This document shows, piece after piece, positions 1 through 56,900 of a stretch of 64,000 nt of DNA. Under the pieces are notes generated by a model. That model ran no database searches. It saw only the letters and a program-made list of their open reading frames with translations, and had not been told where the DNA came from. This stretch comes from a virus. The translations under genes and the position numbers were made by a program. The DNA lies in IMG/VR virus record IMGVR_UViG_3300030107_000800, positions 1 to 64,000 of that record, one strand, 5' to 3'. The stretch's first letter is position 1. Each line of letters begins with the position of its first letter.

Positions 1-3000
1 GAATTGTACAAGAGTATCTCTTAATGCTTGGTCAGCAATAAGATGTCTGTTACGTGCGATTAGATATGCAGCATCAAGATAAGTATCAGCAGCATTATTT
101 GAGATAACATCTACGTATAATAATGCAAGAGTATCAATAGCAGCTCTTACATCATCACAAGCAGGAGTACCAGCAGTTGCAGTTCTTGTGGTTGGGTCAA
201 AATATCTTGCAACAGAAGAATGCTCTGGAACATACTGAAGATCAGTTGGTAATCTATTACCAGTTCTCCAGTTACACATAGCATATGTTGCTAGTTCCTT
301 CGCATAGAAGATACTACGAACTACCTGTGTTATTTCATAATCAATATATGTAATCTTACCATCAACAATAAGCTTCTTACCTGCCTCAATGATGTTATGA
401 TTTGTTCCAAATTCTAAGTCTCTTACAAGAGCATTCAAGAAATGTACAGTATCCTCACGACATTGCTCATCACCATCTGCTCCACTAGCATCTGGAGAAC
501 TATATGCAGGATACTTCTTCTGACCTGCTGCACAAGACATTAAAATATTTGCTAACTTAACAGTATCATCTTCTGCAATATTTGGAATAGAAGTTGCTAG
601 TGTAATAGTTGCATCACCAGTTACAGCATTATCGTATACAAAGTCACTGATGTTATATGAACTACCACCAAATTCTACAGTACCACCACTTACATAAGTA
701 TGTGGTTCTGGTGTTACACCAATATTAGCCTTAAATGTATTACCACCAATAGATATAGCATTTGTTGCTGCTCTTATGAATGTATGTACAGACTGTGGAA
801 GATTCTTAATACAATTTGTAGCAGCAGCAATAAATGTATGACTTGATTGTGGTAAGTATTGAACAGCCTCTGAAGTAGCACTTACAAATTCGTGTGCATA
901 TTGACCACCTATTACCAATGCTCCAGCAGTTGCAGATACAAATGTATGAGGATAATCACCACCCGTTACAATCGCTCCTGTGGTCGCTGAAACAAAATTA
1001 TGAGCATAGTTACCACCACTCACTACAGCATTGCTTGCAGTGCCACCAGCCCATGTATGAGTGTATTCACCACCAGTGATCAATGCATCAGTAGCAGCAC
1101 TAATGAATGTATGACCAGAAATATCAGATGAAGTACCAACATTCATCTTAATTGTAGTAGCAGTTACACCTGTAATTGTAATTGATGTATCATATGCAGG
1201 GTCAGGAGTACCAGCATTAGCACCTTCACCAGATGAACGTGGATATGTCTTCTGAGTGACGTTACCATCAAGTCCACAAGTAAATGTTAATGAATCAGCA
1301 GCAAGTTTAACACTTTCACCTGTAGATAGACTATGAGCACCAATTGTTAGTTCTAATTCTCCATTGACAGGATTATAAGAAGCATTGGTTGGTGTGTACT
1401 TGAGTAAAGGAGTTGTTCCTACATTAACAGTAATTGTTGTTGATGTAGTTCCTGTGATAGAAATAGATGTATCACTATATGGGTCTGTAGAACGAGGATA
1501 AGTATGGTTTGAACTATTTCCATCCATTCCACAAGTAAATGTCAAAGCATTATTTGGAATCTTAATGCTTGTACCTGTAGTTAAATTATGAGTACCAATT
1601 GTTAGTACTAAGAAACCTGTTGTTGGATTATATGTTGCGTCTGTAACATCCCATTGCTTCAGAGGTGATTTACCAACATTAACTTCAATTACTCCACTCT
1701 GATGCTTAAGGCCACCTGTGGTAGCAGAAACAAATGAGTGAGTTGAAGTATTACTAGAAACACCAACGTTAACAGAGAATTTGTTTGCTGTTACGTTTGT
1801 AATTTCTAACCATTCGTCAGCACCAGGATCAGTTAATCTTGGATATGTGTGCTGAGTATTATTATTATCTTTAGTACATGTGAATACAATAGATCCAGTA
1901 TCAATTTTAACTCTATTAGTATTCTGGAATCCGTGGTTGGTAATTGTTAATTCTAAATTACCAGTTTCAGGAGTATAAGTTGCATTCTCAATAGTGTGAC
2001 TTGTTGATCCAGCTGTGTAAATGGGAACAGCAGTTCCATATACAGGATCAGTAGAACGAGGATATGTATGCTGAGTAGCATCACCATCTTGAGCACAAGT
2101 AAATGTTAGAGAATCATCTGCGATTCTAATAGAATCACCTGCTCTTCTTACTCCATTTGCAACAGCACTAATGAAGTAGTGTGTTGTTACGTTAGTAGAA
2201 GGAGCAGAATCTAAAACTTGAACATCAAATGTATTTGCTGTTATGTTAGTAACATCTAACCATGAACCAGATGCAGGGTCAGTTGCTCTAGGATAAGTAT
2301 GTTGAGTTGAACGAGAATCCTCATCACATTCAAATACAAGTGAATCATCAGCAATCATTACACGATCACCAAGATGGAATCCATGATTAGCAACAGTAAG
2401 AGTCATTACACCCGTAGTTGGGTTGTAAGCAGCACCTGTTGCTGTGTAATCAGATCCACCAAGTAGATTGTGGTTACCAATAGTAAGACTTAATACACCT
2501 GTAACTGGGTTATATGTTGATGCAGTTGGTGTATAAGATGAAAGTGGAGTAGATCCAACATTAACTTGGATTGTTCCATCCTGTCTGCTTATTCCATTAG
2601 CATTTGCAGATACAAATGTGTGTGCGGAAGTATTGGAAGATGTACCAACATCAACAGTAAAACTATTAGTTGCTACATTAGAAATTACCAACCACTCATC
2701 ACCAGCAGGATCACTTACTCTTGGATATGAGTGTGTAGAGAAATCATTATCTAAATCGCAAGTAAATGCTAATGACTTCTGATCAATTTTAATTCTATCT
2801 CCATTACTAAATCCATGACCAGGTATAGTCAATGTCATTATACCTGTAGTTGGATTGTAGTATGTACCTCCAAATGTTACTGCATTTGTAGCAGTACCAC
2901 CAACCCATGTGTGAGTGTAATTACCACCACTAGTAATAGCATTAGTTGCAGTAAATCCAGGCTTCCATCTATGAGTTGAAGTATCTGGAGAAACACCAAC

Positions 3001-6000
3001 ATCCAATGTTATTGTTGTTGCTGTAACTGCTGTAATATTAACTGCTGTATCACGAGCAGGGTCAGATGAACGTGGATATGCATGATCAGTTGCATACTGG
3101 TCTTTCTGACATTGGAATGTTAATGAATCATCAGCAATCTTTACACTAGTACCAACAGCAAGACTGTGAGCACCAATGGTTAATGTCATAAGACCTGTTA
3201 TAGGGTCATAAGAACCGTCTGTAGCGGTGTGTTGTACGTTTGCGGTAGTTCCAACGTTAACAGTAATTGTCGTTGCTGCTGTCGCTGTGATAGCGATTTC
3301 CTGATCATACTGTGGATCTACACCAGGACGAGGATATGTCTTAGTTGCAGTTTGTCCATCCATTGAACATCTGAAGGACAATGAATTCTGCTTAATCCTA
3401 ACTGTATCAGATGTTGTTAAACTATGAGAACCAATAGTTAATACCATATCACCCGAAGATGGGCTATAGGTAGCATTGGTTACACTAAAGGATTGTTCTG
3501 GACCTGTTGCTGTATGTTGAGTTAATCCAACACCTACAACCTCAAGTGAAGTGTCAAATGCAGGATCAGTTGGCCTTGGATATGTATGGTTAGTAGCATT
3601 TGAATCCATTCCACAAGTGAATGTCAATGCATTATCTGCAATCTTAACAGAATCACCAACAGCTAAATTATGATCTCCAATGGTAAGAGTTAAAATACCA
3701 GATGTAGGAGTATATACAGCATTTGTAATATCTTTGTTTACAATAGATGTTGATCCAACATTGATTGTAATATCTCCAGTTTGTCTCTCTAATGCATTAG
3801 CTTGTGCTGATACAAATGTGTGAGTACTTGTATCTGAAGAAATACCAACATTAATTGTAAATGTGTCTGCTGTAGCACCAGAAATCTTAACCCATCTATC
3901 ACCAATTGGATCTAATGGACGAGGATAATCATGGTTAGTAGCATTGCCATCTAATGCACAAGTAAATCTAAGTGCTGCATCAGAAAGTTTAACATAATCT
4001 CCATTAGTAAATCCATGTCCAACTATGGTAAGAACCATCTCACCAGTAGCAGGAGTATAAGAAGCATTAGTTACTGTATGCTGAGTCTTAGTAATACTCT
4101 GAACTACAACTGAACTTCCAGCAGTGGGGTCTGTTCCTGGACGAGGATATGTATGAGTAGAAGCATAATCATCCTGTTCGCAACGGAATGATAGAGAATT
4201 ATTTGCAAGAATTATATCTGCTCCTTCTCTAATACCATGCTGCCCTATGGTCATTGTTAAATCACCAGTAGCAGGGTTATAAGTAGCGGCTGAAGGAGTA
4301 AATTTCTTATCCTCACCAGCTGTTCCTACATTAACAGTAATAGAATTTGCATCAGCAGCAGTAATTGCTATTGATTTTCCAGCAGCAAGATCACTGAAAC
4401 CAGCAGATGCACGAGGATAATTTTGTGTGCTCTGGTTTCCATCCATTGAACATGTAAATGACAATGATTCATCATCAATAGTAACACTGTCACCAACTGA
4501 TAATGTATGACTACCAAGTGTTAATATTAAATTACCAGTAGCAGGATCATAACTTGCGTTAGTAGGAGTGTACTGACTGTTTACACCAGCATTACCAACA
4601 TTAACAGTAAATGTATCTGTAGTTACAGATGTAATAGGAAGTGCTTTTCCAGAAGCAGGATCAGTTGACTTAGGATAGTAATGCTCTGTAGCATTAGAAT
4701 CCATAGAACATGTAAATGTTAATGAACTATCTGCTATTCTTACACCAGCACCTGCTGATAATCCATGACCAGCACTTGTAAGTACTAAATCACCTGTAGC
4801 AGGATCATAAGTAGCATCTGTTGGTGTTACATTTGAAGCAGCAGTACCAGCAATATTAAAGATTGAATAGTAATCTTTAGCAAATTGTGCTCCAACTTTA
4901 CCTAAAACTTCATCTGCAATGAAATCTCTGTTATTCTTAATATAATTTGCAGCATCTTGGAAACGTCTGCTAACAGATGTTGTTAATGGGAAACTATTAG
5001 GAGAGTTAAGTAATGATAGATATACAACTCTTGAAGCATTCTTAACTACAGCAAACTGACCTGGATCATAGTTTGGATCTGTAAGAGTAGGATCTTTCTT
5101 AGGAATAACAAATCGTCTGCAACGACCATCATTATCTTCTAATACTTTATAAATTCTTTGCTTACCATTCAAGAATGATAAGTCTGGAGAGTTGGTTGGT
5201 AGACCTGATATTTCTACCTCTTGACCTTCTTTAAACTCGTGAGTGTTAGTTCTACCAACAAGCTGGTTAGTATAGAGGATTATACCACCTACATCTTCAG
5301 CATTACCATACTGAGGACTCTGATAACCACCAGTTGCTATAGAAGGATCTCCCTGTAGAGAGAAGTCAATTCTAGAAATAGGTAGAGTAGAAATGAAATC
5401 TTCATCTACCTCAGTAACTTCACCCTCTGCCCTGATTGACTTAATCTTAGTTGTGTCAATAGTTTCAACGTTTGGTGTGGCAGCAAACATTTGAATAGTA
5501 GCAGCATTGTTACTATTCCAAGTTGGAGCATTAAGTGATTTTAATGGTTGGAATGTTACATCCCAGTAAGTAGGAGCATTATCTGTATTAATTCCAACTA
5601 CTTGATAGAAACCTTCAGTAAATTCTTGATCATTAGTATCATCAAGTTTTACATATGTACCAGCAGGAATTGCAGAAGAAGGATCAGCAGTAAATTTTAA
5701 TATATTAGAACCATTAGTTCCTTCAATGGTTGCAGCAATTTGAGAACCTGCACCAGCAGATGTAATATACTCAAATCGTTCACCCTCAACAAAGGAACCA
5801 CTTGATAGGTTAACATCAACTGTACCATTAATGTATGCATTAGCACCAGTAGTATCAGTAAAAGAAACATCAAATATATCTGCTCTAGCACCAGTGTTTA
5901 AACCAACAACTTCTAATCCAGCAGTAAGATTCTGAAGGCCAGTATTCTGCTGGAAACTAACGCGGAATTGATCTGGACCAAAGACCTGTGTACCAACTGC

Positions 6001-43604: not shown

Positions 43605-43688
43605 TTGTTTACTGAATTAAGGAATGGGACTTACAGGACGTAATTTCTCAACTGGATCAAGACAACCATAGATCCCTGCCCTATTAAT

Positions 43689-43731
43689 ATAATACATCAT
43701 TTTGGGATGATTACTATTGGCCTTGTGACAC
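43689..43731 (-). promoter_or_regulatory. Type I phage promoter P2
   Basis: Minus strand GTGTCACAAGGC (43720-43731), 25 nt, TATTAT (43689-43694). It shares the 18-nt block CAAAATGATGTATTATAT with promoter P4. CAGTTAGATTA precedes the box, as in P3. Confidence 0.8.
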
Positions 43732-43758
43732 TAATCTAACTGTCTTCCTATGAGATGT

Positions 43759-44980: not shown

Positions 44981-45023
44981 ATAATAACAGACCATGAGAG
45001 ATTATCCCATGGCCTTGTGACAC
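44981..45023 (-). promoter_or_regulatory. Type I phage promoter P3
   Basis: Minus strand GTGTCACAAGGC (45012-45023), 25 nt, TATTAT (44981-44986). CCAGTTAGATTA precedes the box. Confidence 0.8.
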
Positions 45024-48448: not shown

Positions 48449-48479
48449 AAACCTCAATGTATTTTAAGTGAGAGAAACA

Positions 48480-48556
48480 AAATCCCAGATGTCTGACCTA
48501 TGCTAACTTGTTTACCAAGTCTAATTAAGATCTCAGGGATGGGATTTCGTTTCCCA
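48480..48556 (-). other. Structured, possibly switching 5' leader of the P5 transcript
   Basis: On the minus strand, AAATCCCA (48540-48547) can pair with the downstream TGGGATTT (48480-48487) or with the upstream TGGGA at 48552-48556 in a 5' hairpin. These pairings exclude each other. Inside is a hairpin ACTTG-GTAAA-CAAGT (48506-48520). A T-rich stretch follows the long-range stem. This is the usual geometry of an attenuator or riboswitch, ahead of the 152-residue gene. Confidence 0.5.
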
Positions 48557-48563
48557 TATTCTT

Positions 48564-48606
48564 ATTATACATCAGTTGAGGATGTTGTCTCTGTGGCCTG
48601 TGCCAC
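48564..48606 (-). promoter_or_regulatory. Type I phage promoter P5
   Basis: Minus strand GTGGCACAGGCC (48595-48606), 25 nt, TATAAT (48564-48569). CCAGTTGAGAAA precedes the box. It lies inside the 3' end of the 100-residue gene. Confidence 0.75.
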
Positions 48607-48867
48607 TTTCTCAACTGGTTTTGATTTGCTGCTTTCCTGTGCCTTTGCCTTTATACTATCAATGGTCTTTAATGACCATGAATATACGTTCTTAGCAGTA
48701 GGTACAATAACATCAGTGGTAAATTCATCCCACTCATATAGATGTATCTGCCAACGTACCTTGGCATCTTCAATGTATTCACCTAGACTGATATGTGTTT
48801 CATCAGGTCTATCTGTTGGTGGTTTGTAGAGACTGCCTTTAACTTTTGGTCGTGGTGATTCAGTCAT
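48565..48867 (-). CDS. Protein with RWxIHxxE domain and disordered C-terminal tail (copy B)
   Basis: A 100-residue protein. Residues 27-70 (ISLGEYIEDAKVRWQIHLYEWDEFTTDVIVP) share Y-x2-D-x3-RW-x-IH-x2-E with the basic-tailed protein at 41298. The tail is Lys/Ser/Thr/Glu-rich and disordered. Promoter P5 is contained in its last codons, so its 3' end has a double function. Function unknown. Confidence 0.7.
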   Translation of the reverse strand: MTESPRPKVKGSLYKPPTDRPDETHISLGEYIEDAKVRWQIHLYEWDEFTTDVIVPTAKNVYSWSLKTIDSIKAKAQESSKSKPVEKVAQATETTSSTDV

Positions 48868-49651: not shown

Positions 49652-49882
49652 TTAAATTCCTCCTTTAATTGTTAATGAACCTCCATGATTCCATGCGTTA
49701 TATAAACATGATTGATGGATAGAAAGAAGATTTTCAAGATTAACACCTTCTAAATCTGTCCACTCTGAAACATAATCAGAACAGTCAAAATCTCCTGTTC
49801 CATCTATATGTTGTGGACATGATCTAAATTCATTATCATTATCTACCCAAAAGATTCGTCCAAAAGATTCACTGTGGAACAT
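49652..49882 (-). CDS. Unknown protein (76 aa) behind structured RNA
   Basis: Reads MFHSESFGRIFWVDNDNEFRSCPQHIDGTGDFDCSDYVSEWTD, then LEGVNLENLLSIHQSCLYNAW; three Cys. GAGG lies 7 nt before its ATG. It is the first gene after the structured RNA of promoter P4, so that RNA may be its leader. Function unknown. Confidence 0.7.
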   Translation of the reverse strand: MFHSESFGRIFWVDNDNEFRSCPQHIDGTGDFDCSDYVSEWTDLEGVNLENLLSIHQSCLYNAWNHGGSLTIKGGI

Positions 49883-49902: not shown

Positions 49903-50045
49903 AAATGTTGAGAGAGTGGGGCATCGACATAGGTTTCACCTATATGCCCAAATTTACCTACTGGGAATCGCTTACACCTGAATACAAGGTCAGGTACTAA
50001 CTCAGTCAATGTTCGGGCAGTAGAACCACATATCCCTCAACATTT
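49903..50045 (-). ncRNA. Putative structured RNA (sRNA or riboswitch-like leader) at the P4 start
   Basis: Minus strand, 143 nt. The closing helix is 13 bp (AAATGTTGAGGGA with TCTCTCAACATTT, one G-U) plus GTGG/CCAC after a 3-nt bulge. Inside: hairpin ACCTGA/TCAGGT; hairpin GGGCAT and ATAGGT with ACCTAT and ATGCCC, with a GTCG bulge; a GTTC/GAAC hairpin; and CTACTG in that loop complementary to a later CAGTAG (pseudoknot or alternative pairing). Promoter P4 ends 3 nt upstream, so the RNA would begin at the closing helix. It has no protein-coding frame. A T-rich TTTCTTTTATTT follows, then the 76-residue gene. Class unknown. Confidence 0.65.
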
Positions 50046-50047
50046 AT

Positions 50048-50090
50048 ATAATACATCATTTTGAACCCAATGCTCGTGGCCTTGTGACAC
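50048..50090 (-). promoter_or_regulatory. Type I phage promoter P4
   Basis: Minus strand GTGTCACAAGGC (50079-50090), 25 nt, TATTAT (50048-50053). Shares CAAAATGATGTATTATAT with P2. Transcription should start near 50041-50045, the edge of the structured RNA. Confidence 0.8.
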
Positions 50091-52229: not shown

Positions 52230-52272
52230 ATTATAGGTGTTCTTGCAATTCAATGGGGTTGCCTTGTGACAC
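52230..52272 (-). promoter_or_regulatory. Type I phage promoter P6, upstream of ho1-pyrE
   Basis: Minus strand GTGTCACAAGGC (52261-52272), 25 nt, TATAAT (52230-52235). It lies within the last codons of the 83-residue gene, with the -10 overlapping that gene's stop codon. Confidence 0.8.
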
Positions 52273-53992: not shown

Positions 53993-56900
53993 TATGCCTT
54001 GATCAAGTATTTGCATGTTCTATAAGGATGTAGTAATGGTACATGAATATCAGGATCAATGGTTGCCTGTGGTTCTATCTTAGTTGTTGACTTTAAAGTC
54101 AACTTTGCATCAGATGCACCAAGACCAGAACTGTATGTTATACCTGGCCCAGTTTCACCTTCAACAGTATAAGTTAGACTATCAACCAATGGTTTTGATA
54201 TAGCACCAGGACTCTGTTGGAATACAAGACCAGATACCTGAGAGTACCACCAAATAAATTCAATAATACCATAATGATCACTATCATCAGCATTATCATT
54301 AGCACCAGATGGTGTTGCTCTTGGTTGCTCAAGTCTGAATCTAGTATCAGTTGCTCTTGCTGCTTCAGGTACTGCCACTGAATATGTATACCAATTAGTT
54401 GTACCATTACCATCCCAAGTATTCTCAATAAGAGGAACATTACCAATGATAGGATCATTCCTTACTGATATTGGTGAGATAATAGTATCAATTAAATTCC
54501 AGTTGGTTGATCCTGAAAGTTGATAGTACACACGTAGTGATTCTTCAGGTGTGTTTCCACCATTAACTCCATTACCTCTACAAGCCTTAATTGAGAAGTA
54601 ATTGCAATTAGTGGTATCAACTGGCCTTAAATTAATCCAACGTGTTCCTCCATTACCACTCAGTCCACCAAATTTAACATACTGTGTGTATGACTGTGAT
54701 GATGCAGGTGTTAATGTTAAACCACTTACTTGTCCAGCAGCCTCATCAACAGTAGCTGTTGCTGTAGTACCACCAGATACTCCATTCATTATATAAACGT
54801 ATGGTTGAGATTGATAACCAGCACCATTACTATCAAGAGAAATAGCATTGACTGTTCCTGCACCAGATAATGTTACTGATCCTGCTGCATTAGTAGTTGC
54901 TCCACCTCCTGCAAATATAACGTCAGGTACTTGAGAAGCTGTTGGTAAAGCAAATGATCCTGCACTTCCAGTACCAGTACCATTACCAAAGATGTCAACA
55001 TCCCACACATTTGCATCTTGTGATGCAGATTCAATTATATCACCAGTAGTAGTTCCAGTTTGACCACCTTCATATCCAGTGATAGTTCCTAATCCTATCT
55101 TAGCATATCCATTACCAGCACTAGCACTAGATCCTGTGGTTTGTCCACCCATTGATACACCAGCACCACCAGTTCCAACTTCTACAGTAATATCAGCAGG
55201 ATCATTTAAGAAAGAAAAATCAATATTACCAACGAATGAACCTCCAGCAGCACCACCACCGCCACCAGCAGTCCAATAATCATTATTATATTCTACTTGT
55301 AATCTTACAGCTGCTTCTCCTCTTTGAATGAGGTCAGTAGATGCACGAGAATGAGTTTCAGCAAAACTAGCATTTTCCAAATAATCTGAACGATATGATG
55401 AAATACCTTGTCTACCACCAGCACCACCTTGGTGCTGACCATCACCACCAGGTCCACCACCGTCTCCAGCAGAACCACCACCATTTCCTGAACCACCAAA
55501 TGTGAGACCGTTGCGAGCGACACCGCCACCGCCTCCTCCACCGCCACCACCGACGCAGGTATAGTTACCACCAACACCACCTTGTCCAGCACCGAGAGCT
55601 TGAGTTGTTGCATCAACTCCTTGAGGTGGTCCAATACCAACAGTACCAGTACCTCCATCATCACCATCTGAACCAGCACCACCTCCACCACCAACACCAG
55701 CGATGATAAGTGATCCACGTTTTATCAATGTAGATGCTCCTCCACCTCCACCAGCATTGACTCCATGACCATTACCACCTTGTCCACCATTACCAGAGTT
55801 ATAATCATTACTTGCACCAGCAACGTTATTCTGAGCAACTTGCCAAGGACTTACACCAATTGCTTGTCCTGCTCTTCTTCCTATCTCTACACTCCATACC
55901 TGTGATTGAAATGTAGTTAATTCTCCACTAACTAAATCAACCTGTAAATATCCACCAGAAGATCCTTGATAGTTACCTCTATGTGATCTTCCTCCCTTAG
56001 CACCCCACATTGTAAATGTTGCACTAGTAGGATTAGCAATCAAATTAGTATCAGGGAATATTGTTGTTGGAGAAGTATTACTACCACCAGTACAATTTGC
56101 TCTTGATTCTGCTACTACATTATTAGTTCCTGCATCCTTAATTTCAAATGCAAGTCCACCAGGATTATCAGACCATGTATTTTGATTAATACTACCAGTA
56201 TTTCTGACTCTAAATGTTACTCTATTCAATCCTGCATCAACTGGTCCAATTGTAACATTTGTAGATGTAGTAGTACCTGCTGCTGGGCTGTTATTAGTCG
56301 TACCCAAGTCATTAATTGCACCTGTCCAATGCATAGTGGCTTCATTATCAGAAGCAAACTCTACATCATATGAGTTACCACCAGTAGCAGTTATTTCTAT
56401 TACACATTCTAGCCAATCACCATAATAAGGATCTGGATTACTTAATCCTGGAAATGTTTTATATATTGCATGATCCTTCATGAACTGAGACCATACACCT
56501 GCTGTTCCTGTTGATAACTGTGCTGTTCCTATTGCTACCCAATTTCTAGTATATAATCCAATAGTAAGATCTAATGTTTGATCATATGTACCAGTCTGTC
56601 CACCTACCAATACGTTAACACCATTAGATCCAGATGAATAAGGATCAACAGTAGCTAATGCTCCGTTACCTCCACCTTGAGGATCATTTGGATACTGTGA
56701 ATATAACCAACCTGGAGAAGTTGGAGCATTTGCTCCCGTTTGACCAGCAGCACCCGTAGCTCCACCAATAACATTAACTGATCCATTATTAACAGCTGAA
56801 CCACCTATTCCACCAGTTCCACCACCCATTCCAACATTTCCTTGGCCACCACCGCCACCACCTACTACTAAATCAACCTCTGCTCCATCACCAACCTTTA

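Follow-up and report, generated by a model that had tools for sequence, protein, structure and literature searches.

A conserved, structured RNA family, previously unlisted in Rfam, has one of its copies at positions 50045–49903 (minus strand) of a 64,000-nucleotide stretch of viral DNA, hereafter the window. The stretch belongs to a 78.5-kb IMG/VR virus record, and its structural genes share ~73% DNA identity with T4-like cyanophages. With a probability of about one half, we read this RNA as a 5′ leader of phage mRNA, an exchangeable cassette that would protect the end of the message and set its expression.

Results

We analysed the segment together with its relatives; its features are collected in Table 1. 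The RNA sits between genes for 115-residue and 76-residue products of no assigned function, on the strand that also carries every neighbouring gene. Folded as minus-strand RNA it reached -46.2 kcal/mol (z -3.5), a value equalled by 1 of 200 shuffles. The preliminary description, made from the letters alone, was thus right about the limits of the segment, its strong structure and the absence of a gene within it. Outside outer P1, G-U pairs exceeded A-C mismatches by 34 to 6, an excess that supports the minus strand as the RNA. An RNA from the plus strand was dropped, as its fold is less stable and the same asymmetry points to minus.

Table 1. Positions in the window of the leader RNA, its parts and the surrounding features.
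Feature	Position	Strand	Remark or evidence
Leader RNA, whole element	49903..50045	-	covariance-model match 117.9 bits, fold, covariation
P1 outer, 5′ strand	50033..50045	-	pairs with 49903-49915; covariation
P1 outer, 3′ strand	49903..49915	-	covariation
P1 inner, GUGG	50026..50029	-	pairs with CCAC at 49916-49919
P2, 5′ strand CUACUG	50018..50023	-	pairs with CAGUAG 49958-49963
P2, 3′ strand CAGUAG	49958..49963	-	covariation
P3, 5′ strand CCC	50015..50017	-	partner 3′ strand AGUAGGGG absent from window copy
P4 stem and hairpin with GGUGAAACC	49920..49948	-	covariation
Near-invariant strand UUCAGGUGUAAGCGAUUCC	49964..49982	-	holds GNRA mini-hairpin GU[GUAA]GC, 49970-49977
Invariant strand GGUAAAUUUGG	49948..49958	-	overlaps P2 end and P4 start
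ACUGAGUUAGUACCUG, 5′ half of E module	49991..50006	-	fused to core at common TCAGGTG
-10 box TATTAT	50048..50053	-	predicted start near 50041, inside P1; -35 poor
Upstream element GTGTCACAAG	50081..50090	-	before promoter, after stop of upstream gene
76-aa gene (phrog_13427, no assigned function)	49652..49882	-	start codon 20 nt past P1
Second leader, module A3 alone	43626..43681	-	21 nt before ATG 43604; recurrence
Third leader, long helix around modules D and N	48471..48555	-	z -4.9

Scanning the window with the Rfam covariance models, at the gathering cut-off and then with lax filters and E values up to 10, gave nothing beyond chance, and neither did Rfam scans of the module arrays. The element thus matches no Rfam family, in line with the preliminary description, which could match it to no known riboswitch; the model of the glutamine riboswitch (RF01739), whose core had been noted as absent, stayed below its cut-off. 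At least 195 distinct copies were counted among the sequences retrieved, in marine virus contigs and in cyanophages P-SSM2 and P-SSM5; BLASTN matches to the element fell in these two phages and in single-cell phage genomes. The P-SSM2 copy (56695-56821) is intergenic and has neighbours different from those in the window. A pattern scan of IMG/VR returned at least 120 rows among the matches listed, and two P2 alleles alone accounted for 116 and 47 IMG/VR contig stretches. The corresponding scan of GTDB genome contigs found zero copies, and an origin in the host was dropped on this ground. A covariance model trained on 46 diverse, insert-trimmed copies recovered the core in 100 of the 100 loci searched and had one match in the window.

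The fold predicted for the core consists of P1, a three-way junction, P2/P3 and P4, and appears compact, with ~40 invariant bases. Compensatory changes were found at 25 of 32 pairs among the 46 diverse copies. In the MAFFT alignment 91.7% of the cells were paired, compared with at most 55% when the alignment was slid, and there were 222 double-change cells versus 60 in shuffles. Such changes across homologues were the test that the preliminary description had proposed, and their abundance supports its suggestion of a new structured RNA behind a promoter-like box. The 13-bp closing helix and the GTGG/CCAC helix that it named are real, as both covary; the inner pair occurs in relatives as GUGG/CCAC, GCGG/CCGC, ACGG/CCGU and AAGG/CCUU, and across copies the outer helix runs to a median of 9.5 contiguous bp. 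P3 and P4 covary as well. P2 was 100% paired in the alignment, with five of its six pairs covarying and ten complementary alleles overall; its strands were complementary in 185/186, a figure biased by the way the 5′ strand was located, with no more than one mismatch permitted. CTACTG/CAGTAG had been put forward as a possible pseudoknot. The pairing holds, but the pseudoknot does not, since in the family alignment P2 is a nested helix; the crossing reading arose because in the window copy, where the 3′ strand of P3 is gone, GCCCGAA can pair with UUUGGGC. Similarly, of the internal hairpins noticed earlier, that of GGTGAAACC (P4) is conserved, whereas the CCTGA/TCAGG hairpin is peculiar to the window copy.

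The opening of P3 is GAA/AGUA in many copies, and we take it to resemble a bulged-G motif. A scan for tetraloop variants yielded seven further copies, each with GCAA replacing GUAA, and this swap fits the GNRA mini-hairpin. A helix GGG/UCC offered by RNAalifold as an alternative was dropped: it shows hardly any variation in its bases, and copies in which P3 covaries (GCUCC/GGAGG) break it.

P3 accommodates 105 different inserts of 17-266 nt. About half of them contain recurrent modules, which we labelled A1-A4, B, C, D, E, F, G and N, with names and boundaries that are provisional and set in the present analysis. The modules recur outside the core too. A3, for example, was found in P3, in E and in the arms of B, on either side of the core, and by itself behind a promoter of the window. 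E stands alone or sits within P3, B or D, and takes at least four different inserts. Nesting runs several levels deep, as in a core that contains C, which contains D, which contains N. Covariation was computed for two modules: it was seen at 9 of 12 pairs in E and at 7 of 15 in an H-type pseudoknot that trails the core and is 99% paired. The latter, CTAATCC..GGATTAG with GGTAGTTT..AAACTACC, was seen at ~2300-2370 of contig L075 and at some 20 other loci, often directly after the core. Phages P-RSM6 and P-TIM68 carry modules and are without the core; at ~53.5-53.9 kb of P-TIM68 (L178 180-500), in a core-less cyanophage genus, lies an intergenic array of A-type modules and N. The results of searching automatically for a shared GGC/GUAAGUCC frame were too noisy and were left unused. 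We lean slightly towards the view that the modules form a combinatorial, nested kit of cyanophage RNAs, which plug together through helix sockets and serve phage genes as swappable 5′ leaders.

One strand of P3 (AGUAGGGG) is missing from the window copy. Its insert, ACUGAGUUAGUACCUG, runs directly into the core at UCAGGUG, and TCAGGTG is common to module E and the core. The strand was probably lost by deletion, through recombination between two copies of TCAGGTG, which would explain both the half E module and the missing AGUAGGGG.

Upstream of the RNA, the TATTAT box puts the predicted transcription start inside the closing helix, in line with the earlier prediction of a start beside it. The 16-mer AAATGATGTATTATAT of this promoter is repeated at 43687-43702. 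Across the family, a TATAAT-like box was present within the 18 nt before P1 in 61% of copies versus 33% of shuffled sequences, a control of modest weight, given the AT-rich sequence and the relatedness of the copies. Of 100 copies, 38 had an ATG no more than 40 nt past P1, in 23 of them at 18-25 nt; the copies without such an ATG continue into more modules. A duplexfold analysis of P1 was too noisy and was left unused. The ORFs downstream, called by a crude rule, fell into 27 unrelated clusters, mostly without known function. The upstream gene was co-directional in 107/111 cases and the downstream gene in 84/96, with a background of 85%; terminator-like hairpins separate upstream genes from some of the leader promoters. 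P-SSM7, AG-345-O18 and AG-345-L05 each have an orthologue of the 76-residue gene with a promoter-like region but without the RNA, whereas contig L073 has a core RNA bearing another P2. One core RNA (contig L068, 4959-5078) lies inside an outer CCCATGG/CCATGGG frame followed by a terminator-like hairpin; this copy comes after a gene, not directly before one.

Two further cassettes were found on the minus strand of the window. In that at 43605-43758, a TGATGTATTATAT box, as at the main element, is followed by A3 alone and then by a 60-aa gene. Folding energy does not set A3 by itself apart from shuffles (z -0.4); the case for this module is its recurrence. The other (48458-48609) has TATAAT at 48569-48564, then a helix with D and N, both of which are also present in P-RSM6 and P-TIM68, and then a DUF7717-like gene. 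This gene shares 46% identity with the gene 3′ of the core in contig L042, indicating that one gene family can carry different leaders. At 45014-45023 and 52263-52272 (minus strand), GTGTCACAAG and a promoter-like box stand directly before genes, with no structured RNA.

Discussion

The closest known family is manA (RF01745; PMC2864571, PMC9964418), which, like the leader RNA, occurs in T4-like cyanophages and has been described from the potential 5′ UTR of a variety of genes (PMC2864571). In P-SSM2, manA is a start-proximal closed RNA with TTGACA/TATAAT-like boxes, ~20 nt before a start codon, a layout like that of the leader RNA. The window copy also lies in a potential 5′ UTR, with 20 nt from P1 to the ATG and the -10 box adjacent (predicted start). 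The two are nevertheless different families by covariance model: their invariant bases differ and neither model matches the other RNA. On the window (E up to 10, lax filters) and on the arrays the manA model stayed below the cut-off, while the control, P-SSM2 manA, scored 181.6 bits; P-SSM2 carries both, manA at 142837-143034 and the leader RNA at 56695-56821. wcaG (RF01761) is, like the leader RNA, a 5′ UTR candidate RNA of marine cyanophages (PMC2864571, PMC9964418). Its model was below the cut-off on the window, and none was found in eight related records, in a search that gave no positive-control match. The put RNA of HK022 is a phage RNA that acts from the transcript start (PMC9378689), and its tie to the leader RNA is positional alone. 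GOLLD, ROOL and OLE are large, ornate structured RNAs, some of them in phages (PMC12286853); the Rfam scan gave no match to them, and the leader RNA, in contrast, is made of small modules that are swapped and nested. We found no description of the leader RNA or of nested modules in the open PMC literature, nor of modular organization of this kind in structured RNA.

In the reading that we prefer, transcription would begin at the margin of P1, the closing helix, as the promoter predicts, and the RNA would be transcribed together with the gene behind it. Leaders would be interchangeable cassettes between promoter and gene that T4-like cyanophages exchange by recombination, and P3 would be the socket into which other RNA modules fit. 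The stable structure may lock the 5′ end of the mRNA, and the locked end could shield phage messages from the host 5′-end-dependent nucleases RNase E and RNase J; the leader might also set the expression of these messages. A 5′ end buried in a helix generally slows 5′-dependent decay. RNase E is reported to rise in infected Prochlorococcus (PMC2518516), and on these two grounds we favour a putative role in protecting the mRNA and setting its expression. Several observations sit less well with a leader: ~60% of the copies lead into further modules and not directly into a gene, the L068 copy has a terminator-like hairpin next to it and no adjacent gene, and the window copy has a broken P3 and a poor -35 box. 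In addition, the invariance of the core is stronger than a simple 5′ clamp needs, suggesting that it has a specific partner too, be it a protein, a ligand or the polymerase.

An optional, exchangeable leader fits the genomic context better than either a dedicated riboswitch or a free sRNA, two of the possibilities raised in the preliminary description. A riboswitch dedicated to the 76-residue gene finds no support, given the 27 unrelated ORF clusters that the RNA precedes and the orthologues that have the promoter and no RNA. A broader version, in which metabolite binding by the invariant core would govern the translation of many phage genes together, would account for the aptamer-like invariance, the GNRA hairpin, the three-way junction and the 5′ UTR position, and manA and wcaG, from the same phages, have themselves been put forward as candidate riboswitches (PMC2864571). 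We nonetheless consider it unlikely: the copies have no common expression platform, the ~20-nt spacer is not conserved, P3 accommodates as much as 240 nt of other RNA, and the genes downstream share no metabolic theme, being unrelated and mostly without known function. The possibility of an sRNA or decoy, released from its own promoter to act in trans on host RNA-binding proteins or mRNAs, draws on the promoter-like box, the stable closed fold, the terminator-like hairpin after the L068 copy and the idea that each module of the mosaic could bind a partner. It seems improbable, as there is no consistent terminator past P1 (T fraction ~0.40 over the next 12 nt) and the short, constant distance to the start codon favours a 5′ leader.

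About equally improbable is an RNA that, like HK022 put (PMC9378689), rides the RNA polymerase and suppresses termination. The conserved, start-proximal position ahead of co-directional gene runs would suit such a role, as would the terminator-like hairpins between upstream genes and some of the promoters; however, we saw no likeness to put in sequence or structure, only in position, and that position can be filled by different modules. That the modules recur at different sites, nest in one another and are not bound to one gene might also suggest selfish hairpin elements that spread through the intergenic regions of phages and bring them no benefit. This we regard as very improbable, because the orientation is that of the upstream gene in 107/111 cases, the position is fixed relative to promoter and start codon, and the invariant core is maintained as RNA.

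Few ocean viruses have been studied as much as those of Prochlorococcus and Synechococcus, yet the leader RNA of the sequenced P-SSM2 is not in Rfam. P-SSM2 is an isolate that allows functional tests of the RNA. The family offers a natural case of RNA evolution by the swapping of whole modules, useful for the study of RNA structure and phage gene expression and for RNA design.

Two minor observations concern the surroundings of the arrays and the window at large. An ORF of 37-42 residues (FAEFLLENADT) is often located 3′ of arrays, at L001 2692-2820 and 22 other loci, and could encode a conserved small protein. Positions 285-5220, unlike the remaining window, include several stretches, 180-870 nt long, in which no ORF reaches 40 aa.
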